This document shows, one piece after another, positions 49,404 through 60,200 of a stretch of DNA of 64,000 nucleotides (position 1 is the stretch's first letter; every line of letters begins with the position of its first letter). The notes beneath the pieces were generated by a model that was not told the origin of the DNA, searched no databases, and saw only the letters and a list, made by a program, of their open reading frames with translations. A program made the translations under genes and the position numbers. Source of the DNA: Sphingomonas sabuli (GTDB taxonomy: Bacteria; Pseudomonadota; Alphaproteobacteria; Sphingomonadales; Sphingomonadaceae); the NCBI RefSeq assembly GCF_014352855.1, contig NZ_CP060697.1, positions 620,001 to 684,000 of the forward strand, read 5' to 3'.

Positions 49404-50150
49404 GTGAAACATTTCATCAACCAGGACATGCTCGCGCCCAACGTGATGACGGTGCCGGTCGACGACGGCATCGCCAGTGAGTTTGCCGAGCTGGCGGGCG
49501 CTGACGATCCCGGTACCGATTACCATGTCGAAAGGCCGTGGCTAAAATATAGCGACATGCGCTGGATCTCCGCCCGGACGGAGCGCGCGTTCGAACGATT
49601 CGAGTCCGCGTTCGACCGGCTGGATGTCGCCCGCCACGTTCGCGATTATGTCGACCTCGACAAAAAGGTCCGCTTCTTCACCGGCTTCCTCCACACGCGC
49701 AGCGACTGCAGGGAAAGCAATTTCCACGTCGACTGGAAGCTGACCAACAACGAGGCCTTCACTTTGCTGGTGCCGGTACGCGGTTTAGAGTCCGGTCCTC
49801 GGCTGGCCTACAAGCAGGTCACCGGCGACGTCGCGACCTACGACTACAAACGCGGCGAGGCGATCATCTTCGGCGATCATTTTGTCCACTCGACGCCGGA
49901 AGGCCTATCCGAACCGCCCTTCACAATGCTCGTGCTCTATTTCGGCACCGACAAGATGGAGCATTGGGGAAAGCTGCTGCGCACGCAGGGCTTTCAATGT
50001 CCGTTGCTGCGCCGCCCGGACGGGGAATTCCTGCGCGTCGATCCTCAAAAGGGACCGTCCGGTCCCGGCAACGACGTCGAGTGGACCGCCGAGGCGCCCA
50101 AGCCGCAGGCGCTTGGCACGCCGGGAAATCTGAGCAAGGACAGCGCATGA
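49404..50150 (+). CDS. Putative 2OG-Fe(II) oxygenase of the lasso cluster
   Basis: The 248-residue protein has an apparent iron facial triad: His108-Val-Asp110 in NFHVDWKLTN and His159 or His162 in EAIIFGDHFVHSTPEG. The spacing fits the double-stranded beta-helix fold of 2-oxoglutarate oxygenases. The 2OG-binding Arg or Lys is not certain. Its stop overlaps the start of B1 (ATGA), so it is co-translated with a lasso maturation gene and could hydroxylate the peptide. It starts at GTG. A cupin without oxygenase activity is the main alternative. Confidence 0.62.
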   Translation: MKHFINQDMLAPNVMTVPVDDGIASEFAELAGADDPGTDYHVERPWLKYSDMRWISARTERAFERFESAFDRLDVARHVRDYVDLDKKVRFFTGFLHTRSDCRESNFHVDWKLTNNEAFTLLVPVRGLESGPRLAYKQVTGDVATYDYKRGEAIIFGDHFVHSTPEGLSEPPFTMLVLYFGTDKMEHWGKLLRTQGFQCPLLRRPDGEFLRVDPQKGPSGPGNDVEWTAEAPKPQALGTPGNLSKDSA

Positions 50151-50413
50151 CAACCTACCGACGGACCAGCGAACTGCTCGAGGCTGAAGTTGGCGACGAG
50201 CTAGTCGGGCTCGAACCCCGACTTGGCCATTGCTTCGGGCTCAATTCGGTCGCGGCCGACGTCTGGAGGCAGCTGGAACAGCCGCAAACCTTCGCCGCGC
50301 TCCGCGATTACCTGCTGACCAATTATGAGGTGGAGTCAGAACAGTGCGCGCACGAGCTGCGCGAACTGCTCGACGAAATGGCCGCCAAGGGACTTGTCGC
50401 AGCCGAAGCCTAG
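50147..50413 (+). CDS. Lasso peptide B1 protein (PqqD-like leader-binding domain)
   Basis: The 88-residue protein has a PqqD-like winged-helix fold: the beta start GDELVGLEPRLGHCFGLNSVAADVWRQLE and a C-terminal helix HELRELLDEMAAKGLV. In split-B lasso systems B1 is the RiPP recognition element that holds the leader of the precursor and presents it to B2 and C. It overlaps the oxygenase gene upstream and its stop overlaps the convergent C gene by four bases. Confidence 0.88.
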   Translation: MTTYRRTSELLEAEVGDELVGLEPRLGHCFGLNSVAADVWRQLEQPQTFAALRDYLLTNYEVESEQCAHELRELLDEMAAKGLVAAEA

Positions 50414-52275
50414 AAATTCGTCTTGACGAAATGAGCCAGTCCGACGGCACCGAGAACGGTGTTGCGGTAGAAAATCTCCTGCCACCAATCGTCCCATCGC
50501 GTAGGCCACTCCTCGATCAACCGGTCGAGGCGGTCGACTTCCAGCAATTCCATCACCGCCGGATGATTTCGGCACTCGTGATAGGCGGACCGCACCCGCG
50601 CACGCGTAAACTGGTTATACCAGTCGGCCGCCTGGTACCCGCGCGGTCGAACATCGCCCGGCTGCCTGCCGAGCTTCGCGGCAAAAACACGATCGTATAG
50701 CGGGTTGGCGTGTCCCCGCCCGACAAGGAGCTCGGGCGGCGCGGCAAAGCAGGTCTCGATAAAGTCCCGGTCCGCGGTCGGATCGCGCGTATCGACGCCA
50801 TGGCTGCGGCCAAAAGCGTTGGTGGGATCCTGCGCCATCAGCATCTCGCGGCGCAACTCGAACCAATTGGCGGGTGGACGCCGGTCCTCCAGCTCCGCTT
50901 CGGCCAGTTGCTGGACCGATGCACGATATTTAGGCCGAAGCAGGTCCAGTCCCATCGCCTGGCTCGGCCGCGCGCTGACGAGCCGGATCAGCCAGTTATA
51001 TCCTGATCGCGGGACCAGCCCGCCAAACGTCGAATGCATCAGTCGCGCAAAGTCCCGCGGTCCGGTCGCCGAGGCGAGGGCCGCCCGAAGCCATCGCAAC
51101 GCGCCCTCTTCCCGCAATAGCGGCAATAGCGCCGCCCGGCCCCCGGCACTGACGGTGAAATTTCCAACCGCGCCGTTCAGCAACACGTGCGCGCCTGCGT
51201 CACGCGCACCCTGAACGATGTCGCGGCTCCAGGGGAAGTTCGACAAATGCCCGATCGGGTTGGGGAGCAATGCATGCGCCGTGTCCAACAGATCGAATGG
51301 ATCACCGTTCGGTCGCAGGACGTGGTGACGAATGTTCGGGTGAAGAGCGGCGACGCTGTCCGCCACGCCGCTTTCGTCGCTAATCCTGCCATACGGTGCG
51401 AGCCGGGAAAAACCGCTCTCTGGTGCTGCTGTGAAAGCGTCGAGGGACAGGCCTTGCGCCTGTAACAGTTCGGCAGCGACAACCGTGACAGCGCCGCTGT
51501 CGCGGCCGGAACTCAGTTCCGAAGCAACGCCGCCCGTGCCCTTCGATAACCGCCGTCCAACAGCGGTCTCGAAACTCGTCGCGAAGCGCTCGGCATAATC
51601 CCTGCTCTCCACGCCGCTGGGCCGCACCCTGCGCGGCGACCAGAAAACCGTGGCTCGACTATGCCCGTCGTCATCAATCTCCAGCATCGTCGAGTGATTG
51701 AGCCGCGAAACGCCGCGGTACATCGTGGTGGAGTCGGGAAACGGTATGCCAGAAGCGAACCTCGCGGCCGACGAAAGATCGAGCTCGCGATCAAGTCCCG
51801 GCATCCGCAGCAGCATGTGCAAGTCGGAGGCGAAGCCGATCCCTTCGTGTCGCTGATTATAGAATAGCTGGCATCCCGACATGGGCGCTCGCACCAGCCA
51901 TAGACGCCGGCTGCGGCCGTCGAACAGCGCGAAGGCGAAATCGCCGCGCACATAATCAAGGCATGCCGGACCGTCGTTCTGCCACGCGCGGAGCAGAAGC
52001 TGCAGGTCCGACATATTAGCTAGGCTGGAGGAGTGCGGCTTAACCCGCGACGCAATCTCAGCACGATTGTGCAATCGGGCGTCGCCGGCCATGCGGAGAT
52101 TTGCCTCCGGGACCACGGCTGTTCCCGCGAACCCGTCAAAGTCAGGAATGTGAGCGAAGCTGACAGGGCCATCGCCGACTAAGTCACGTCGAGTCGCGTG
52201 ACTCGACATCGCCCCGCAGGCCAGCCCGGGGTCGATGCCGTCTTTGAAACTGAAGAAACCCGCGAACGCCGTCAC
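50410..52275 (-). CDS. Lasso cyclase C (asparagine synthetase-like)
   Basis: The 621-residue protein has an N-terminal glutaminase-like domain lacking the catalytic Cys at position 2 and a C-terminal Asn-synthetase domain. The ATP loop SSGRDSGAVTVVAAELL is near residue 250, as in lasso cyclases that adenylate the ring Asp/Glu and form the macrolactam. It starts at GTG 52275 with no strong ribosome site, 60 bases after the precursor gene stop on the same strand, so it may rely on coupling or on read-through of the hairpin between them. Confidence 0.9.
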   Translation of the reverse strand: MTAFAGFFSFKDGIDPGLACGAMSSHATRRDLVGDGPVSFAHIPDFDGFAGTAVVPEANLRMAGDARLHNRAEIASRVKPHSSSLANMSDLQLLLRAWQNDGPACLDYVRGDFAFALFDGRSRRLWLVRAPMSGCQLFYNQRHEGIGFASDLHMLLRMPGLDRELDLSSAARFASGIPFPDSTTMYRGVSRLNHSTMLEIDDDGHSRATVFWSPRRVRPSGVESRDYAERFATSFETAVGRRLSKGTGGVASELSSGRDSGAVTVVAAELLQAQGLSLDAFTAAPESGFSRLAPYGRISDESGVADSVAALHPNIRHHVLRPNGDPFDLLDTAHALLPNPIGHLSNFPWSRDIVQGARDAGAHVLLNGAVGNFTVSAGGRAALLPLLREEGALRWLRAALASATGPRDFARLMHSTFGGLVPRSGYNWLIRLVSARPSQAMGLDLLRPKYRASVQQLAEAELEDRRPPANWFELRREMLMAQDPTNAFGRSHGVDTRDPTADRDFIETCFAAPPELLVGRGHANPLYDRVFAAKLGRQPGDVRPRGYQAADWYNQFTRARVRSAYHECRNHPAVMELLEVDRLDRLIEEWPTRWDDWWQEIFYRNTVLGAVGLAHFVKTNF

Positions 52276-52298: not shown

Positions 52299-52341
52299 GA
52301 GATCCAAAAAAGCGCTACCTAAGTACCGGATTCGGTTAGGA
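52299..52341 (-). terminator. Attenuator-like hairpin between precursor and cyclase genes
   Basis: On the minus strand, directly after the precursor stop, CCTA-ACCG-AATC-CGGT-ACT-TAGG forms an imperfect stem, followed five bases later by six Ts. Weak hairpins between precursor and enzyme genes are known from lasso operons and let the precursor be made in excess. Confidence 0.4.
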
Positions 52342-52476
52342 AAAATTCTTCCCATTATTATTCGAGCCGCCATCGCTGACCACGGTTTTGGCAATCGCTT
52401 CGGCGCTTCCAGCGGCGATGGTCCGGATCATCGGCTTCTTCCAGATACGCCGAGCGCCCGTATAATTATTGTTCAT
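52336..52476 (-). CDS. Candidate lasso peptide precursor A
   Basis: A 46-residue gene in the gap between the kinase and cyclase genes, with AGGAG six bases before its ATG. The leader carries W12-K-K-P15-M-I17, the (Y/W)xxPxL/I motif read by B1. Counting 17 residues from this aromatic residue puts the core start at Ala29: AKTVVSDGGSNNNGKNFS. Asp35 is then core residue 7, able to close a 7-residue macrolactam ring with Ala1 (8- or 9-residue rings if the core begins one or two residues earlier). The last residue is Ser, the site lasso kinases phosphorylate. The usual Thr at -2 is absent, so the cut site is an inference. Confidence 0.75.
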   Translation of the reverse strand: MNNNYTGARRIWKKPMIRTIAAGSAEAIAKTVVSDGGSNNNGKNFS

Positions 52477-52521
52477 GACATGCTCCTAACGGAATGTACT
52501 TACCAAGCCCGGAACGGACCT

Positions 52522-53448
52522 TCAATCATCCTTATCGGAAAGATGCCCTATCACAGATAGCGCTTCGTCGGCGAGAGCTTCCAGGCGGCCGGTGAAAAAT
52601 ACCTCATGAATCATTATACTTTTCGCAATTCTAACGCATTCAGAGAAGTGCTCGCGCTCGGCGCCCACATCGTAGACAAACCCGCCCCGATAGGAGTGCT
52701 CGAACAAGGCGTGGACCGCATCGACGCCGTGTATGGCCTGGATGCGAAAGCTGTCCCCACGATTGAGAATATATATTCCGCCTAGCGCATAGGCCCGGTC
52801 GGCCTTTGCGGTTTCACTGACCGGCACGTCGTATTTCTCGTACGTCGTCTCGCCCTTGAACGATCGACGGAAGTCCACGGTGTCCCGACCACTCGCTTCC
52901 AGCGCGTCACGCCAAAGGCGCAACCGCATCACGCCGGGAAAAACGACCGGATTGCCGGCATCATTCCTGCCGATGGCGGCGACGTCGTCGGTCAGCAATG
53001 CATAGCCCTGGTCCTGGAACCACGCAGCCAGCGTCGACTTGCCGCCGCCAGATTCCGCCATGAAGACATAAGCATGACCGTCGATGACAACGGCGTTGGC
53101 ATGGAGCGGTAGAATGCCGCGCTGGTGCAGCAGCAAGCCGAATGCCGAACCCAGCAGGAAGACGCGAACGTTCTCCGCGGGCACCTCTGCTTCAGCATCG
53201 ACCAGGATCGTCGACCCGCCCGACACGAAGAAGCGCGCGACGTCCGGAACGACCAGCATCATGCCGTCATCGACCGCGTGTACACCCTCTTCTAGGTCAC
53301 GCCCAAAGTCGATCGGCCCTTTCGACACGCGCACGTCGGCTTTGCGATCCGGGTCGCCCTGCACAAGTTCGGGCAACCCGATGTCGCTGTCGATGGTCAG
53401 CCCGAAAAGATAGTAGCGGTGCGCCGGCGCACCGAGCGCGGCCGTCAT
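52522..53448 (-). CDS. HPr kinase-like lasso peptide kinase
   Basis: The 308-residue protein has an HprK C-terminal kinase fold: GILPLHANAVVIDGHAYVFM leading into Walker A AESGGGKST (131-139), then LLTDDVAAIGR and a Tyr/Glu-rich region. In related clusters (paeninodin, Thermobacillus) this kinase phosphorylates the side chain of the C-terminal Ser of the precursor. The precursor gene is 45 bases downstream and ends in Ser. It is divergent from the nucleotidyltransferase gene across only 44 bases. Confidence 0.88.
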   Translation of the reverse strand: MTAALGAPAHRYYLFGLTIDSDIGLPELVQGDPDRKADVRVSKGPIDFGRDLEEGVHAVDDGMMLVVPDVARFFVSGGSTILVDAEAEVPAENVRVFLLGSAFGLLLHQRGILPLHANAVVIDGHAYVFMAESGGGKSTLAAWFQDQGYALLTDDVAAIGRNDAGNPVVFPGVMRLRLWRDALEASGRDTVDFRRSFKGETTYEKYDVPVSETAKADRAYALGGIYILNRGDSFRIQAIHGVDAVHALFEHSYRGGFVYDVGAEREHFSECVRIAKSIMIHEVFFTGRLEALADEALSVIGHLSDKDD

Positions 53449-53492: not shown

Positions 53493-54557
53493 ATGATCAC
53501 GCCAGAGCTTCAACTTGCCATCGATTGCTGCCGGGCCAACTTCGTCGGCGCGACCGATGCCGGCGATCTCGCGGTGACGCAGGCCATCGATTGGGAGCGA
53601 TTTCTGCGCGTCGTCCGGCGCCACCGTGTGGAAGCTCTCGCCGCTCGCGCCCTGCACCGTCATCATGCCACCGTCCCTGCCGCAATAGTCGCCGACCTGT
53701 CCAGCGACGCCACGCGGACCGCGCAAGCCAATCTGCGTGCCGCCAACGAATGCCGTCGGTTGCTCGCCGCCTTTCACGATGCCGATGTTCCAGTCCTGTT
53801 CGTAAAAGGTCTGACACTTTCGCAATTGGCCTACGGCGACGCGACAGTGAAAATGTCGTCCGACATCGATTTCCTGGTCGAACCGTCCAGCCTGCCAGCC
53901 GTGGCCGGCATTCTCGCCACTCTTGGCTATTCTCTCGACGCGGCCGATATGGAGGTAGGCAGCGCCGCTTATGAGCGGATGCACCGGCATGCCAAGGACG
54001 TGCCATGGCGCAACCGCGCCGGCATCACGCTTGAGCCGCACACGCGGTTGACCGACCATCCCGACCTCATTCCCGCGATCGGCATGGCGTCGCCGCGGCA
54101 GGAGGTCGGCGTCCTGCCCGGTGTTTCTCTCCCTACCCTCGCTCGCGAAGACCTATTCGCCTATCTTTGCGTGCACGGCGCCTCAAGCGCGTGGTTCCGG
54201 CTCAAATGGGTCGCCGACCTTGTCGGATTGATTGGATCTGACGGCGCGGAGGCCGAGCGTCTTTATCGACTGGCGGTTCGCCAGGGTGCGGGCCGCGCGC
54301 CGGCCCAAGCGCTGCTGGTCGCCAGTCGTCTGTTTGGACTTCCTCTGCCCGAGCGGCTGCGCGCCGAACTTTGCGCCGATCCTGCAAATCGCGCCCTTGC
54401 GAGGATGGCGCTACGCCAGATTAGCGACGAGCGTGAACCGACTGCGCGCCCACTCGGGACGCTGACGATCCACCTCTCCCAGTTGCTCCTGCGCAAGGGG
54501 CTCCGGTTCAAGACTTCCGAAGCCAGGCGCCAGGTTGCGCAGGTTCTAGCCCGCTAG
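53493..54557 (+). CDS. Nucleotidyltransferase of the NTP_transf_5 family
   Basis: The 354-residue protein has VLFVKGLTLSQLAYGD and the metal-binding pair in MSSDIDFLVE (Asp124, Asp126), the signature of NTP_transf_5, followed by a helical C-terminal half. Such genes recur in lasso clusters that also carry a kinase, and have been linked to further modification of the phosphorylated tail. Its exact reaction here is unknown. It leads a plus-strand unit with the exporter gene. Confidence 0.82.
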   Translation: MITPELQLAIDCCRANFVGATDAGDLAVTQAIDWERFLRVVRRHRVEALAARALHRHHATVPAAIVADLSSDATRTAQANLRAANECRRLLAAFHDADVPVLFVKGLTLSQLAYGDATVKMSSDIDFLVEPSSLPAVAGILATLGYSLDAADMEVGSAAYERMHRHAKDVPWRNRAGITLEPHTRLTDHPDLIPAIGMASPRQEVGVLPGVSLPTLAREDLFAYLCVHGASSAWFRLKWVADLVGLIGSDGAEAERLYRLAVRQGAGRAPAQALLVASRLFGLPLPERLRAELCADPANRALARMALRQISDEREPTARPLGTLTIHLSQLLLRKGLRFKTSEARRQVAQVLAR

Positions 54558-54607: not shown

Positions 54608-56377
54608 ATGGGGGTCATGGCGGGCGGCAAGGTCACTGGTTTCTGGAGTAGCCTCAGGCAACTTCACGCGATCATCACGCCGGCACAGCGGCGGGAGCTG
54701 TGGACGGTCGCGGCTTTGACCGTGGCCGGCGCCGTCGCGGAAGTCACGGCCATCGGTGCCGTCGTGCCATTCCTCGCCCTGCTCGCCAACAGCGGCGGCA
54801 GCGCGGCCGGATCATCGATCTTCCGGGTGTTTTCGGCGCTTGGAGCGACGACTGAACAGCAACAGCTGGCCCTTGCCACCGCAATCCTGTGCAGCGCAGC
54901 GGTCGCCGCCGCGGTGCTGCGCATTTTCCTCGTTCGCAAAACGCAATATTTCGCCAACCTGTTCGGGCACGAACTGTCGCTCGAGGTGCAGCGGCGGATC
55001 CTGTTCCAGCCCTACATCTGGCACACTGGTCAGAATTCGAGCCGCCAGCTGGCCGCGATCGAGAAGGTGCAGCTGGTGACCGGGTTGATCCTGCAGCCAC
55101 TGCTGAGCGCCGCCGCCGCGACGGTGCTGATCGCAGCCGTGCTTGTCGTACTGCTGCAACTAGCGCCGCTCGCGACGATTGCTGCGGGGACGGTGCTCGG
55201 CGTCGCATACTGGATCATTGGCGCCGCGGCGCGGTCCCGCCTCTCCCGCAATTCGCAGCTCGCGGACGAGGCGCTGGAGCGACGCACGCGCATCATCCAG
55301 GAGGCCGCCGGCGGCATTCGCGAGATCATCCTCGACGATTCGCAGGCGCGCGTCGTGGCCAGCTTCCGTGCCGCCGACCTGCAGTTCGCCCATGCGCTGG
55401 CCGACAGCAGCGTAGTGTCCATTATCCCGCGCTACATCCTTGAATCCGCCGGCGTCGTCGTAATCGCCATCGTTGCTCTGGTTATGGCGGAACGCGACGG
55501 CGGCATCATCGCCGCCCTGCCGCTGCTTGGCGCGCTGGCGCTCGGCGCGCAGCGACTGCTGCCGCTGGTTCAGCAGCTGTTCCAGGGCTGGAGCTCGGTC
55601 GCGGCGCATAGCGCAATGATCGACGACCTGCTCGGCCCGCTGCGGCTGCCGTTGCCGGGCCATACGGACAATCTTCCGGCCATGCCCTTCGCGATGGCCA
55701 TCGCGTTCGACGATGTCGGCTTTCGTTTTCCCGGCCGGGACCAGGATGCCGTCGCCGGATTGAGCTTTTCCATCCCCAAGGGCGCGCGGGTCGCGCTGGT
55801 GGGGCGCACCGGCAGCGGCAAAAGCACCTCAGCCGACCTGCTGATGGGCCTGCTCGATCCCGGAAGTGGAAGGATAACGATCGACGGCACGACTCTCGAC
55901 GACACCAACCGCAGGGCGTGGCGCGCAAATATCGGCCACGTCCCGCAGATGCCCTTCCTTGCCGACGCTACGATCGCCGAAAACATTGCCTTGTCGTCGG
56001 AGCCGGACACGGACCGGGTGCGCCAGGCCGCAAAACAGGCGCAGCTTTCCGATTTTATCGACAGCCTGCCGGCCGGCTACGCCACGCATGTTGGCGAGCG
56101 CGGCGCCCGCCTGTCCGGGGGCCAGCGACAGCGGTTGGCGATCGCCCGGGCAATCTACAAGGACGCGCCGCTATTGGTCCTCGACGAAGCCACCAGTGCG
56201 CTGGACGACGAAACGGAACGTGCGATCGCCGGCGCGCTTGACGGGCTGCAGGCGCGGGGAACGACCGTCGTCATCATCGCGCACCGGTCGTCGATGATCG
56301 CCGGCTGCGACCAGGTCATTCGCCTCGACGGCGGCCGGATCGCCGGCACGGAGGCTCAGGCGGCGTCCCTGGGGTAA
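54608..56377 (+). CDS. ABC exporter of the lasso cluster (D protein)
   Basis: The 589-residue half-transporter has six membrane helices (about residues 30-330) and a nucleotide-binding domain: Walker A GRTGSGKST, signature LSGGQRQRLAIARA, Walker B LLVLDEATSALDD and H-loop IIAHRSSMI. It matches lasso D proteins, which export the mature peptide and give self-immunity. It has no N-terminal C39 peptidase domain, as expected since B2 removes the leader. Its 3' end overlaps the convergent B2 gene by 22 bases. Confidence 0.9.
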   Translation: MGVMAGGKVTGFWSSLRQLHAIITPAQRRELWTVAALTVAGAVAEVTAIGAVVPFLALLANSGGSAAGSSIFRVFSALGATTEQQQLALATAILCSAAVAAAVLRIFLVRKTQYFANLFGHELSLEVQRRILFQPYIWHTGQNSSRQLAAIEKVQLVTGLILQPLLSAAAATVLIAAVLVVLLQLAPLATIAAGTVLGVAYWIIGAAARSRLSRNSQLADEALERRTRIIQEAAGGIREIILDDSQARVVASFRAADLQFAHALADSSVVSIIPRYILESAGVVVIAIVALVMAERDGGIIAALPLLGALALGAQRLLPLVQQLFQGWSSVAAHSAMIDDLLGPLRLPLPGHTDNLPAMPFAMAIAFDDVGFRFPGRDQDAVAGLSFSIPKGARVALVGRTGSGKSTSADLLMGLLDPGSGRITIDGTTLDDTNRRAWRANIGHVPQMPFLADATIAENIALSSEPDTDRVRQAAKQAQLSDFIDSLPAGYATHVGERGARLSGGQRQRLAIARAIYKDAPLLVLDEATSALDDETERAIAGALDGLQARGTTVVIIAHRSSMIAGCDQVIRLDGGRIAGTEAQAASLG

Positions 56378-56799
56378 GTGGCAAGCTGCGCGTAAGACCC
56401 GGCTTCTTCGGCGCCGATGACGATCCGGTCGCCAACCTTCACCCAGACATGGGCCTTGAGCGCGTCGTCAGCCGGGTTGGCACCATAACATAGTATCGCG
56501 GGCACGCCGCGGCTGCGCAGCAGACGCTGCAGAGCCAATCCGCGATGAATGCACACGTTGCGCCACGGCGCCCCGTAGCTGGCCCGGTTCAGCGCCCTGA
56601 CCCAGTCATCGATCACTACCGCCTCCGCTGTCGAGCCTTCCAGCGGCACCGATCCGCTTTCGATCGCTCGCTGAAAAGGCATCATGCGCAGGACAAGGCT
56701 GGCGCGGGCAAGTTCGGCAAAGGCTGCAAGAACCCGGACGCGCTCTGCCCAAGGGAGCCGAAGCGCTCCATCCGCCAGCTTGCGTAACCGTGTCGCGAT
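56356..56799 (-). CDS. Lasso peptide B2 protein (transglutaminase-like leader peptidase), ATC start
   Basis: Read from ATC at 56799 the protein has 147 residues, the usual B2 length. The N-terminal helix (RLRKLADGALRLPWAERVRVL) and LRMMPFQRAI come first, then the catalytic Cys in WRNVCIHRGLALQRLLRSRGVP (Cys83), His in LKAHVWVKVGD (His117) and the following Asp. B2 removes the leader before cyclisation. AGGGGA stands six bases before the ATC. The first standard start, ATG 56685, would cut off 38 conserved-looking residues. It lies opposite to the exporter. Confidence 0.82.
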   Translation of the reverse strand: MATRLRKLADGALRLPWAERVRVLAAFAELARASLVLRMMPFQRAIESGSVPLEGSTAEAVVIDDWVRALNRASYGAPWRNVCIHRGLALQRLLRSRGVPAILCYGANPADDALKAHVWVKVGDRIVIGAEEAGSYAQLATYPRDAA

Positions 56800-57004
56800 G
56801 GTTGGTCCCCTAAAGCCGCTAGCGACGGTCGAGCCCGTGCCGTGGCAACATACTCATTCTGGCGGAAAATAGCGCCACTTGGCGAAGTATGACATGGTCC
56901 CTATCCGATTCGGGTTCGATTGCGTCCACTTTTGAAGGTCCATCCATGGTCATCGCTGCTCCGGGTCCGCTCGATTGACGCCGTTCGAGTCCAGGAACGC
57001 CACC
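56800..57004. other. Intergenic region between lasso B2 and polysaccharide genes
   Basis: This 205-base divergent gap separates B2 from the aminotransferase gene. It holds an AT-rich part around 56845-56895 that could contain promoters for one or both directions. No small gene or tRNA is seen. Confidence 0.4.
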
Positions 57005-58225
57005 GTGACCGTGGCCGACGAGGCCGCAGGCGGGCCGTCGCGCGGGCTTGAACTGCGGACCGACGAACAATGGCCGTTTTACGCGGAAGATGAGATCGCA
57101 GCGGTCGCCGATGTCCTCCGCTCCGGCAAGGTCAATCAATGGACCGGACCCGATGTCACGGCCTTCGTCGCCGCGTGCGAGCGGCGCTTCGGCGGCGGCC
57201 GCGGGCTGGCATTGGCCAACGGCTCGCTTGCCCTTGAAATCGTGCTCCGGGCCTATGGCGTCGGCCCTGGTGACGAAGTGGTCGTGTCGCCGCGTTCCTT
57301 CATGGCCTCGGCATCATCCGCTTCGCTGGTCGGCGCAACGCCGGTCTTCGCCGACGTCGATGCCGACAGCGGCAACATCACCCCGAACAGCATCGCACGG
57401 GTCCTTACGGATCGAACGCGGGCGATTATTCCCGTTCACCTCGCGGGCTGGCCGGCCGACATTCAGGGAATGATGGACCTTGTCGATGGCCGCGACGTCG
57501 TCGTCATCGAGGATTGCGCACAGGCACATGGGGCCATGATCGGCGGCCAGAGCGTCGGCAGCATTGGTCACGCCGCCGCTTTTTCCTTTTGTCAGGACAA
57601 GATCATCTCGACCGGCGGCGAAGGCGGCTACGTCAGCTTCCAGGACGAAGCCAAATGGCGCTGGGCCTGGTCGTTCAAGGACCATGGCAAGGATCTGGAC
57701 AAGGCCACATCGGGCGGCGGCACTCCGGGCATGTTCCGCTACGTTCACGACAGCATCGGGACCAACTGGCGCCTGACCGGCCCGCAGGCCGCGATCGGCA
57801 TGGCTCAGCTTGGCAAGCTCGACCGCTGGACCGACCGGCGAACGCGTAACGCACGTATCTGGATCGACGCGCTGGACGGCATTCCCCGGCTGCGCGTCCC
57901 CCTGCCCGACCCGCACCTGCGGCATGCTTTCTACAAGCTCTATTTCTACATCGAAGGCGGCTCCGACGACGATGCCGCGGAGGCACGTGCGACGATTATC
58001 GGCTGTGCGCAGGCGGAGGGCCTGCGGCTATTCTCGGGCAGCTGTTCCGAAATCTATCTGGAACAGGCTTTCGCCGACCTGCCGCGACCCGATTGCCCTG
58101 TTTCGCGCTCATTGGGCGCACGAAGCCTGATGGTTGAAGTGCACCCGACGCTCCAGCCCGATCTCCTCGAGCGACGGGCAGCCCGCCTGGCGGAAATGCT
58201 CCGCGCGGTCCTCGGCGGCGCGTAG
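57005..58225 (+). CDS. DegT/DnrJ/EryC1-type sugar aminotransferase
   Basis: The 406-residue PLP enzyme has LALANGSLALEIVLRAYG, VIEDCAQAHGA and the catalytic Lys199 in SFCQDKIISTGGEGGYV. These match nucleotide-sugar aminotransferases that build amino sugars for LPS or exopolysaccharide. GTG 57005 is chosen because AGGA precedes it by eight bases; TTG 56975 is an alternative. It is followed after ten bases by a CapD-like dehydratase, so the two probably make one amino sugar. Confidence 0.9.
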   Translation: MTVADEAAGGPSRGLELRTDEQWPFYAEDEIAAVADVLRSGKVNQWTGPDVTAFVAACERRFGGGRGLALANGSLALEIVLRAYGVGPGDEVVVSPRSFMASASSASLVGATPVFADVDADSGNITPNSIARVLTDRTRAIIPVHLAGWPADIQGMMDLVDGRDVVVIEDCAQAHGAMIGGQSVGSIGHAAAFSFCQDKIISTGGEGGYVSFQDEAKWRWAWSFKDHGKDLDKATSGGGTPGMFRYVHDSIGTNWRLTGPQAAIGMAQLGKLDRWTDRRTRNARIWIDALDGIPRLRVPLPDPHLRHAFYKLYFYIEGGSDDDAAEARATIIGCAQAEGLRLFSGSCSEIYLEQAFADLPRPDCPVSRSLGARSLMVEVHPTLQPDLLERRAARLAEMLRAVLGGA

Positions 58226-58235
58226 GCAGATCGAC

Positions 58236-60200
58236 GTGCCGATCCAGTTGCTCCGCAAGCTGCCCAACCTGGGACGCCGCCGCAAGCGGGCGATCCTCGT
58301 TGCCTATGACTTGGCGGCGATGCTGGTCTCGCTGTGGGCCAGCTTCTCGGTTCGCCTTGGCGTCCTCTACGTGCCGACCGGCCGGCGGGTCATCATCTCC
58401 GCGCTGATCGCCTTCGCGGTGGGCATTATCGCCCTATACCGTTTCCGTATCTATCACATCGTGTTGCGCTATTTCGACCTGCGCATGGTCACGCGCATTC
58501 TTGCCGCGTCCGCGGCATCGGCGCTGGCCTGGGTCGCGCTCGTCTACCTGATGGACGCCAAGATTGCCTTTTCCTACCGCACCTTCGACGTCCCGCGGTC
58601 GGTCGCCTTCATCTATTGCGGCTTCCTGTTCATGCTGCTGTTCATGGGCCGCTATGCGATGGCGTTGTTGCTCGCCGGCGCCGGGGCCGATCCGGACGAG
58701 AATGCCGATCTTACCCGCAACATCCTGATCTATGGCGCCAACCCGGTCGGGATAAGCCTGGCGGATTCGGTTCGCCTCTCATCGCGCTACCGCCTGGCCG
58801 GCTTCATCGATAGCGATCCCGCGGTCCAGGGTCAGATCGTCGCCGGCTTCCCCATCTATCACCCGTCGAAGCTGCCCCAGCTGGCCGCCGACGGCGAGAT
58901 CGACGAGGTCTTCCTGGCCATGTCCAGCGCCAGCCGGGCCCAGCGACTGGAAGCGATTTCGCAGGTCCGCGCGCTCGACCTTGAAGTGAAGACCGTCCCG
59001 GCGCCCGAGGAAATCGTCTCCGGGCGCTTCACCGTCAGCGACATCCGGCCGGTCGACGTCAGCGACCTGTTGCGTCGTGACCCGGTGGAACCCCTCGGCA
59101 ACCTCATCCAGGAAGCGATCGAGGGCCGCTCGATCCTCGTCACCGGTGCCGGGGGATCGATCGGTTCCGAAATCTGCCGCCAGGTGCTGCAAGGCGGTCC
59201 GCGCAAGCTGGTGCTGCTCGATCACAGCGAGTTCGCGCTTTATACGATCCACGATCATCTCACCGAGATCGCCGAACTGCTTCCGCCCGAGCGAAGGCCG
59301 GACGTGGTGCCGGTGGTCGGCTCGATGCTCGACGACGTGCTGGTACGCCAGCTTCTCGCGACCCATGCCATCGACACGCTCTATCACGCCGCCGCCTACA
59401 AGCACGTGCCGCTGCTTGAGGACAATGAGCTGGTCGGCATCCAGAATAACGTGTTCGGGACGCTGACCGTCGCGCGTGCTGCCTTCGACGCCAAGCTGAC
59501 CCGGTTCACGATGATCTCGACCGACAAGGCGGTCCGGCCGAAGAGCGTAATGGGCGCGACCAAGCGCGTCGCCGAGCTGGTCATCCAGGCTCTGGCCAGC
59601 AGCGCCGGCTGCAAGACGCAATTCGGCATCGTCCGCTTCGGCAACGTGCTCGATTCCTCAGGTTCGGTCGTGCAGCGTTTCCGCAAGCAGATCCGTGCCG
59701 GCGGACCGGTGACGGTCACGCACCGGGACATCACCCGTTTCTTCATGTCCATTCCCGAGGCGACCCAGCTCGTCCTTCAGGCGAGCGCCATGGCCCGCAA
59801 CGGCGAAGTCTTCGTGCTCGACATGGGCGAGCCGGTGAAGATCAGCGAACTTGCCCGGCACATGATCAACCTGTCGGGCATGACCGTTCAGGATGACGAC
59901 AATCCATCGGGCGACGTGGCGATCAACTTCGTCGGCCTGCGCCCGGGTGAGAAGCTGTACGAGGAACTGTTCGTCGGCGAGGAAACGCTGGCCACCGATC
60001 ATCCGCGCATCAGTATGGCGCGGGAACGGATCATCGCCCAACCCGAGCTCGACGAACTGCTCGCCGAACTCCGCTCGGCAGTGGCGACCGGCGATCGTCT
60101 GGTGACCCGTTCCGCGCTGCGCGAATTCCTGACGTCAGAGATCGATGCCGAAGTGATCGAATTCCCGACCCACAAGCAGGCCGACGGCACGAACGGCTAG
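58236..60200 (+). CDS. CapD/FlaA1-type nucleotide-sugar 4,6-dehydratase, membrane bound
   Basis: The 654-residue protein has four N-terminal membrane helices (about residues 20-150), a CoA-binding-like Rossmann domain (ILIYGANPVGISLADSV) and an SDR domain with ILVTGAGGSIGSE near residue 300. The active-site segment is MISTDKAVRPKSVMGATKR. It fits WbpM/CapD enzymes that dehydrate UDP-GlcNAc to a 4-keto-6-deoxy sugar, which the upstream aminotransferase could aminate. Its stop overlaps the convergent epimerase gene by four bases. Confidence 0.93.
   Translation: MPIQLLRKLPNLGRRRKRAILVAYDLAAMLVSLWASFSVRLGVLYVPTGRRVIISALIAFAVGIIALYRFRIYHIVLRYFDLRMVTRILAASAASALAWVALVYLMDAKIAFSYRTFDVPRSVAFIYCGFLFMLLFMGRYAMALLLAGAGADPDENADLTRNILIYGANPVGISLADSVRLSSRYRLAGFIDSDPAVQGQIVAGFPIYHPSKLPQLAADGEIDEVFLAMSSASRAQRLEAISQVRALDLEVKTVPAPEEIVSGRFTVSDIRPVDVSDLLRRDPVEPLGNLIQEAIEGRSILVTGAGGSIGSEICRQVLQGGPRKLVLLDHSEFALYTIHDHLTEIAELLPPERRPDVVPVVGSMLDDVLVRQLLATHAIDTLYHAAAYKHVPLLEDNELVGIQNNVFGTLTVARAAFDAKLTRFTMISTDKAVRPKSVMGATKRVAELVIQALASSAGCKTQFGIVRFGNVLDSSGSVVQRFRKQIRAGGPVTVTHRDITRFFMSIPEATQLVLQASAMARNGEVFVLDMGEPVKISELARHMINLSGMTVQDDDNPSGDVAINFVGLRPGEKLYEELFVGEETLATDHPRISMARERIIAQPELDELLAELRSAVATGDRLVTRSALREFLTSEIDAEVIEFPTHKQADGTNG

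Follow-up and report, generated by a model that had tools for sequence, protein, structure and literature searches.

Introduction

The described systems closest to the locus analysed here are the paeninodin-like lasso peptides of Bacillota (PadeA, PbaA, pseudomycoidin), which, in the parts of the literature on which we draw, share with it a W..P leader motif (with the tryptophan at position -15 in PbaA), a kinase, a C-terminal serine, split B1 and B2 proteins and, in some cases, a nucleotidyltransferase (PMC13381572, PMC9266682). The same sources describe phosphorylation of the C-terminal serine by PadeK, ThcoK, SyanK and PsmK and addition of a hexose by PsmN (PMC9266682). For paeninodin, B1 has been shown to bind the leader and to present it to B2 (PMC5067487, consulted in part). 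Paeninodins were called restricted to Bacillota in the consulted sections of a 2026 study (PMC13381572), whereas the genus studied here is a sphingomonad; and where three Bacillota loci combine Thr(-2) with a B1 tyrosine, our locus has Ala(-2)-Glu(-1) and a B1 cysteine.

Three further systems share part of this set, as far as the consulted portions of the reports go. SyanA/SyanK of Sphingobium yanoikuyae also belongs to a sphingomonad, and its kinase (poly)phosphorylates the C-terminal serine (PMC9266682). BsfA/BsfK of Bradymonas sediminis combines a kinase and a nucleotidyltransferase with a residue other than Thr at -2 and B1-dependent cleavage, the latter being predicted for our locus, but BsfA has Tyr at -17, Ile(-2), a Gly1-Asp8 ring, its phosphate on Ser3 and a C-terminal Asp (PMC10368454). 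The canucin cluster likewise contains an Fe/2-oxoglutarate (Fe/2OG) oxygenase, the hydroxylase CanE, which is stimulated by B1 (PMC9266682); unlike in canucin, the oxygenase found here belongs to a family without a Pfam model, its gene overlaps that of B1, it is fused to PqqD in three of the best 120 of 243 homologues, and the core lacks a C-terminal Asp. Kinase-tailored lasso peptides are thus a known kind, also in sphingomonads. A limited literature search returned no description of the AG.AE precursor family, the core register, the B1 pairing or the linked oxygenase reported below.

Results

A small gene between kinase and cyclase genes

The window, that is, the whole stretch of DNA that was analysed, comprises 64,000 nucleotides of Sphingomonas sabuli (NZ_CP060697.1, positions 620,001 to 684,000), and coordinates refer to it. 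The A, B1, B2, C, D, kinase and nucleotidyltransferase genes all lie within it; the oxygenase-like gene, B1, the nucleotidyltransferase and the ABC exporter are on the plus strand, and the precursor, kinase, cyclase and B2 on the minus strand.

49404..50150, plus: putative Fe(II)/2-oxoglutarate oxygenase, overlapping B1 by 4 bases
50147..50413, plus: B1 (PqqD-type RRE), with Cys29 at the position of the Tyr suspected to contact residue -2
50410..52275, minus: asparagine-synthase-like macrolactam cyclase (C), PF00733 at 57.6 bits, SSGRDS motif, no Cys at position 2
52336..52476, minus: lasso precursor gene (A), probable, 46 codons, translation MNNNYTGARRIWKKPMIRTIAAGSAEAIAKTVVSDGGSNNNGKNFS, profile-supported
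52399..52476, minus: leader, residues 1-26, with WKKPMI at residues 12-17 and AGSAE at 22-26 (alignment A1 and register counts)
52339..52398, minus: predicted core AIAKTVVSDGGSNNNGKNFS, residues 27-46, with ring Ala27-Asp35 (A1-D9) and Ser46 as predicted phosphorylation site
52483..52487, minus: Shine-Dalgarno AGGAG, six bases 5' of the precursor ATG
52522..53448, minus: HPr-kinase-like lasso kinase, with H116, G134, G136, K137, S138, D154 and D155 invariant in 16/16 aligned
53493..54557, plus: nucleotidyltransferase PF14907 (PsmN-like candidate), 163.9 bits
54608..56377, plus: ABC exporter (D), by model matches
56356..56685, minus: B2 leader peptidase, NF033537 at 58.7 bits (cut-off 33)

An earlier reading of this DNA (the original prediction) had proposed an unannotated 46-codon gene as the lasso precursor. 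The frame is there, at exactly 52336-52476 of the minus strand, flanked by the HPr-kinase-like gene (52522-53448) and the asparagine-synthase-like cyclase gene (50410-52275), all three on the same strand, and the ribosome site ascribed to it is the AGGAG six bases before the ATG. Its WxxPxI leader motif was also read correctly, as W12..P15.I17, with W and P invariant in 16/16 sequences; the translation further contains Asp35 and a C-terminal Ser46. When scored with an HMM of 15 relatives from which the window sequence had been left out, the ORF reached 37.6 bits (E 1.2e-10), and the highest score was 5.8 bits among the other 590 window ORFs of 25-150 aa and 7.8 bits among 1000 shuffles, values that make a chance ORF very unlikely. 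The 46-codon ORF is a real gene. It is likely the lasso precursor of its own cluster, a reading supported by the W..P leader motif and by the C-terminal serine beside a kinase.

Other candidates for this role were discarded. The pattern [WY]..P.[LIVMFA] plus an acid at W+22/23 fits 3/591 window ORFs of 25-150 aa, the precursor ORF included, and the two others, at 5.6 and 7.0 kb, lie about 45 kb from the cluster and are not among the top matches of the family profile. Membership in a known precursor model was rejected too, with 0/16 family members matching any NCBIfam family; the window ORF matched 0 Pfam families.

The cyclase scores 135.4 bits against the NCBIfam lasso-cyclase model, under its cut-off of 525. 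For B2, the homology match spans 56377-56739 and reaches past the first ATG of the 56356..56685 ORF, so that the true start is probably upstream; within 56356-56850, no in-frame ATG, GTG or TTG occurs upstream of 56685 before a stop, and the 5' end has either a non-standard start or is damaged.

The surroundings of the cluster hold two further observations. A second lasso-type locus, with a B2 match over the cut-off and a cyclase-like stretch, is found 12 kb before the window (L219); its neighbours are, as we take them from their sequences, peptidase, TonB-receptor, FecR and sigma-factor genes. Directly after the cluster, at 56975-60200, there is a gene that we presume, again from reading its sequence, to be nucleotide-sugar dehydratase-like (epimerase-like), together with a DegT-type aminotransferase gene. 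Capsule loci often adjoin Bacillota paeninodin clusters, according to the consulted parts of PMC13381572 and PMC9266682.

Conservation and spread of the precursor family

A kinase search of 71 genomes of the genus gave a match of at least 96 bits in 36/71, the window's genome included; most weaker matches were frames some 170 aa long, like the ordinary short HPr kinase. Motif scans for precursors at 40 kinase loci of the genus found a small W..P.[VIL]....AG.AE ORF beside the cyclase in 15, a different type (W..P.L....A.x followed by M.G....EG, and similar) in nine, an acid-free type in four and no precursor in 12. For 10 of those 12 loci, an AG.AE precursor is encoded elsewhere in the same genome, one of them (L119 of G008) being a weak match (E 0.003).

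Alignment A1 of 16 rows has W..P, AG.AE and the C-terminal Ser invariant. A profile of these 16 precursors produced 31 matches at E<1e-6, spread over 26/71 genus genomes and including the 16 profile members themselves; at E<=1, matches extended to 54/71 genomes, much of it noise. In the protein database, the profile recovered 467 proteins at E<=0.01. The best 120 of these, among which are the window's own protein and five others equal from the Trp on to profile members, matched no Pfam domain. Taking the core to start at W+15, each of the 120 has W, Ala(-2), Glu(-1), a C-terminal Ser and an acid at core position 8 or 9; the 120/120 for W, P, AG.AE and the terminal Ser is partly circular because the search profile already held those features, the acid position being less so. 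The C-terminal serine that the original prediction had noted is present as Ser46, and its counterpart is found in 32/33 sequences (L115 lacks it). The Asn/Gly-rich tail, which had been thought unusual, turned out to be common in the family.

The gene is thus kept in related clusters, as the original prediction demanded. A cyclase gene adjoins the AG.AE precursor in 15/15 kinase-anchored loci and in 15/16 further ones, that is, in 30/31 non-window loci; the sole precursor locus without it is L106, and the cyclase of that genome's L046 is about 15 kb away. BLAST searches of the 15 kinase-anchored loci with the window proteins found B1 in 12, the nucleotidyltransferase in 12, B2 in seven, the ABC exporter in two and the oxygenase in none. 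Beyond the genus, with part of the candidates per genome scored, the profile matched 3/397 genomes of a family-wide draw (E<=1e-5), of which two belong to the genus, and 4/296 genomes of an order-wide draw, all in the genus.

Ten genomes carry an AG.AE precursor, usually with a cyclase (L104, L106-L111, L113, L114, L116, L118, L119), at least 14 kb or a contig away from a precursor-less kinase locus (L044, L046, L048, L052-L058). The acid-free second family (L069 10388-10510, L070 9555-9677, L071 7064-7186, L072 7750-7866, all of the same genus) lies near kinase, cyclase and nucleotidyltransferase genes in 4/4 loci, with B1 found in two and B2 beside it in three; the cyclase of L069 is split over two frames. 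Its core region has no Asp or Glu, and a Gln is invariant at W+23 (core position 9 if the core starts at W+15) in the four loci and in 12/12 proteins found, two of which belong to these loci. Either this family is not a lasso, or its ring is closed through Gln. A third type, with W..P.L....A.x then M.G....EG.. and a Lys/Ser-rich tail, occurs in L059-L063 and L065-L068; in these kinase clusters, the B1 pocket position is Cys or Val, and in the W+15 register most members would give Met1-Glu9 rings.

Core start and ring size

The register was scored in 33 sequences (the 16 of alignment A1, 16 further loci and L123 of another genus) and in the best 120 of the 467 database relatives, the window being in both sets. 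A core start at W+15 puts an acid at position 8 or 9 in 32/33 and 120/120, the one miss being L119, a relative at E 0.003 with no acid anywhere in its core; Asp35 is then core position 9. Kinase-associated precursors of other phyla, found via the kinase alignment (80 of 196 loci kept), provide a further landmark: in Bacillota, Bacteroidota and Chloroflexota, a Thr stands at W+13, which is -2 if the core starts at W+15, and at this homologous position the canonical Thr of other phyla is Ala in the window's family. The paeninodin-like leader of PbaA has its W at -15, as given in the consulted part of PMC13381572, a position that W12 occupies only if the core starts at Ala27. Since the acid at 8/9, the Thr(-2) at W+13 and the W(-15) of PbaA all agree on Ala27, AIAKTVVSDGGSNNNGKNFS with an A1-D9 ring is the most likely core, rather than the AKTVVSDGGSNNNGKNFS with a 7-residue ring that was originally proposed. 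Its calculated mass would be 1960.96 as a lasso and 2040.93 as a phosphorylated lasso. Two elements of the first proposal survive the shift: Asp35 is kept as the predicted ring-closing residue, and Ala is core residue 1 in both registers.

How firmly are the other two starts excluded? A core beginning at Ala29 (W+17, the spacing used in the original prediction), with a ring A1-D7, would agree with the YxxPxL at -17 to -12 of BsfA and its relatives (consulted part of PMC10368454), and a ring closed between Ala1 and D7 is of a known size; but an acid at 7-9 is then present in only 21/33 and 67/120 sequences, which leaves 12/33 and 53/120 without one, residues -2 and -1 become variable instead of the invariant Ala-Glu, and the alignment puts the Thr(-2) of other phyla at W+13. 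We rejected this register and give it hardly any chance. A start at Ile28 (W+16), with a ring I1-D8 and a leader ending in Glu26-Ala27, is very unlikely. It places an acid at 7-9 in 32/33 and 120/120 sequences too, in rings of 7 or 8, and if Thr(-2) and PbaA are ignored, this equal score amounts to one residue of uncertainty; but it would put Glu at -2 and a variable residue at -1, and it mismatches both the W(-15) of PbaA, as far as that source was consulted, and the Thr(-2) alignment. We therefore keep the start at Ala27 in what follows.

Leader residue -2 and B1

The window precursor has Ala25 at leader position -2 instead of Thr, and Ala is found there in 120/120 of the best relatives out of 467. 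As such, Ala(-2) is not new, and Thr(-2) is not strictly defining: according to the consulted part of PMC10368454, Ile(-2) was shown for BsfA, and predictions with Ile, Val or Ala at -2 are cited there. The same source suspects a B1 tyrosine (FusE Tyr33, BsfB1 Tyr37) of contacting Thr(-2), and reports that BsfA was no longer cleaved once its Ile(-2) had been mutated to Ala or to Thr. Because Ala at this position abolished cleavage of BsfA, Ala(-2) here would need an adapted B1/B2.

The B1 of the window matches PF05402 with 55.5 bits and lasso_PqqD_Bac with 39.7 bits, under the cut-off of 80 for the latter. The position equivalent to the suspected tyrosine was located by alignment to TbiB1 and by a residue count in the BsfB1 sequence given in PMC10368454, where Tyr37 fits if numbering starts at the second Met; in the window it is Cys29. 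A total of 137 loci were examined, 73 with a qualifying precursor, 92 with a B1 match and 53 with both, and only these 53 entered the pairing table. Residue -2 and the B1 position pair as Thr/Tyr in 11, Ala/Cys in 35, Ala/Val in five and Ala/Tyr in two, the last being Ancylobacter and a Xanthobacteraceae bacterium. In other words, the B1 position is Cys or Val in 40/42 Ala loci and Tyr in 11/11 Thr loci. The 35 Ala/Cys loci include seven second copies of genus loci (L126, L128, L129, L131, L133, L134, L136), leaving 28 distinct; with duplicates removed (46 loci), the counts are 33/35 and 11/11. Only precursors with W..P, one of T/A/I/V/S/G at W+13, an acid at W+22/23 and a terminal Ser passed the filter, which ties the table to the W+15 register. 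In addition, the pairing may reflect few evolutionary events, since the Ala/Cys loci are all alphaproteobacterial records or from the window's genus.

Kinase and putative oxygenase

The kinase retains the His-Lys-Asp-Asp motif (H116, K137, D154, D155; 16/16) and GxGKS. It reaches only 13.9 bits against Pfam Hpr_kinase_C, below the cut-off of 33.3, and a PDB sequence search with it gave no match. The C-terminal serine acceptor is present in the precursor, and by analogy with the described kinases, Ser46 (core Ser20) is the predicted phosphorylation site.

In the putative oxygenase, H108, D110 and H162 are invariant in 40/40 aligned sequences. Its AlphaFold model has a mean pLDDT of 89.8, and nearly all of the best 50 Foldseek matches are Fe/2OG-type enzymes (HygX, SnoN, prolyl hydroxylases), with moderate TM-scores of 0.41-0.52 by query length. 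Three of the best 120 of 243 homologues (P0149, P0175, P0183) end in a PqqD domain that contains GNCFGLN; because PqqD is fused to the oxygenase in these three, B1-guided oxidation like that of CanE is plausible. BLAST with the window protein found the oxygenase in 0/40 other genus loci; a scan of genome contigs for it, with 56 stretches, confirmed none, and it occurs in 3/298 family genomes, the window's own included. The other two genomes (L124, L125) have no lasso gene nearby, L125 with one stop inside the match. Both this rarity and the occurrence outside lasso clusters count against an exclusive lasso role of the enzyme.

Discussion

Our analysis indicates that the product of the 46-codon ORF is very probably the precursor of a class II lasso peptide tailored by a kinase. 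Taking the gene, its cluster, their conservation, the register statistics and the catalytic motifs as what is observed, we infer every chemical step of the following model, as well as threading, export and the role of the product. B1 (50147-50413) would bind the leader via W12..P15.I17. On the B1-leader complex, the kinase would phosphorylate the C-terminal Ser46, and this phosphate may receive a sugar from the nucleotidyltransferase; the oxygenase may act there too, by hydroxylating a residue of the core. B2 would then cut after Glu26, with Ala25 sitting in a pocket to which Cys29 of B1 contributes, and the cyclase would adenylate Asp35 and link it with the Ala27 amino group, so that a 9-residue ring is followed by an 11-residue tail. 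The finished lasso peptide, which may be capped with phosphate, would be exported by the ABC transporter.

Two departures from this model deserve consideration. The kinase might modify a ring residue (Ser34, which is core Ser8, or Thr31) instead of Ser46. BsfK acting on Ser3 is a precedent (consulted part of PMC10368454), and the predicted core does contain Ser8 and Thr5; nevertheless, no ring Ser or Thr is conserved in the alignment while the C-terminal Ser is (32/33, and 120/120 of the best of 467), and SyanK of Sphingobium modifies the C-terminal Ser (consulted part of PMC9266682), so we consider ring phosphorylation improbable. The product might also be linear, phosphorylated and perhaps glycosylated like the LPPs of Bacillota, with the cyclase acting on something else. 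The kinase, nucleotidyltransferase and RRE set is indeed common to LPPs, in the consulted sections of PMC13381572, and the ten genomes whose kinase locus lacks a precursor, the AG.AE precursor lying at least 14 kb away or on another contig, would fit such a product. It is, however, the cyclase gene that is most tightly linked to the precursor (30/31 non-window loci), an acid is fixed at core 8/9, and LPPs are described as having no macrolactam cyclase and as being cut by a signal-peptidase-like enzyme; a linear product is accordingly a shade less probable than even the start at Ile28. We thus retain a lasso peptide phosphorylated on Ser46 as the predicted product.

A broader proposal, to which we assign slightly less than an even chance, is that alphaproteobacterial kinase-type lasso systems have rebuilt their cleavage specificity, with Ala(-2)-Glu(-1) for Thr(-2) and Cys or Val for the Tyr of the B1 S2 pocket, to form a naturally orthogonal B1/leader pair, and that the window's B1 might also recruit a new Fe/2OG oxygenase family, yielding a product with a phosphate and possibly a sugar and a hydroxyl. 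Whatever the outcome, one small missed gene has led to a precursor family of 467 database proteins (E<=0.01). The rule that the core starts at W+15, after AG.AE, would supply the right masses to look for by mass spectrometry, and if the separated kinase and precursor loci serve each other, tailoring acts in trans. With the pairing of Ala(-2)/Cys versus Thr(-2)/Tyr, a joint reading of the penultimate leader residue by B1 and B2 becomes directly testable.
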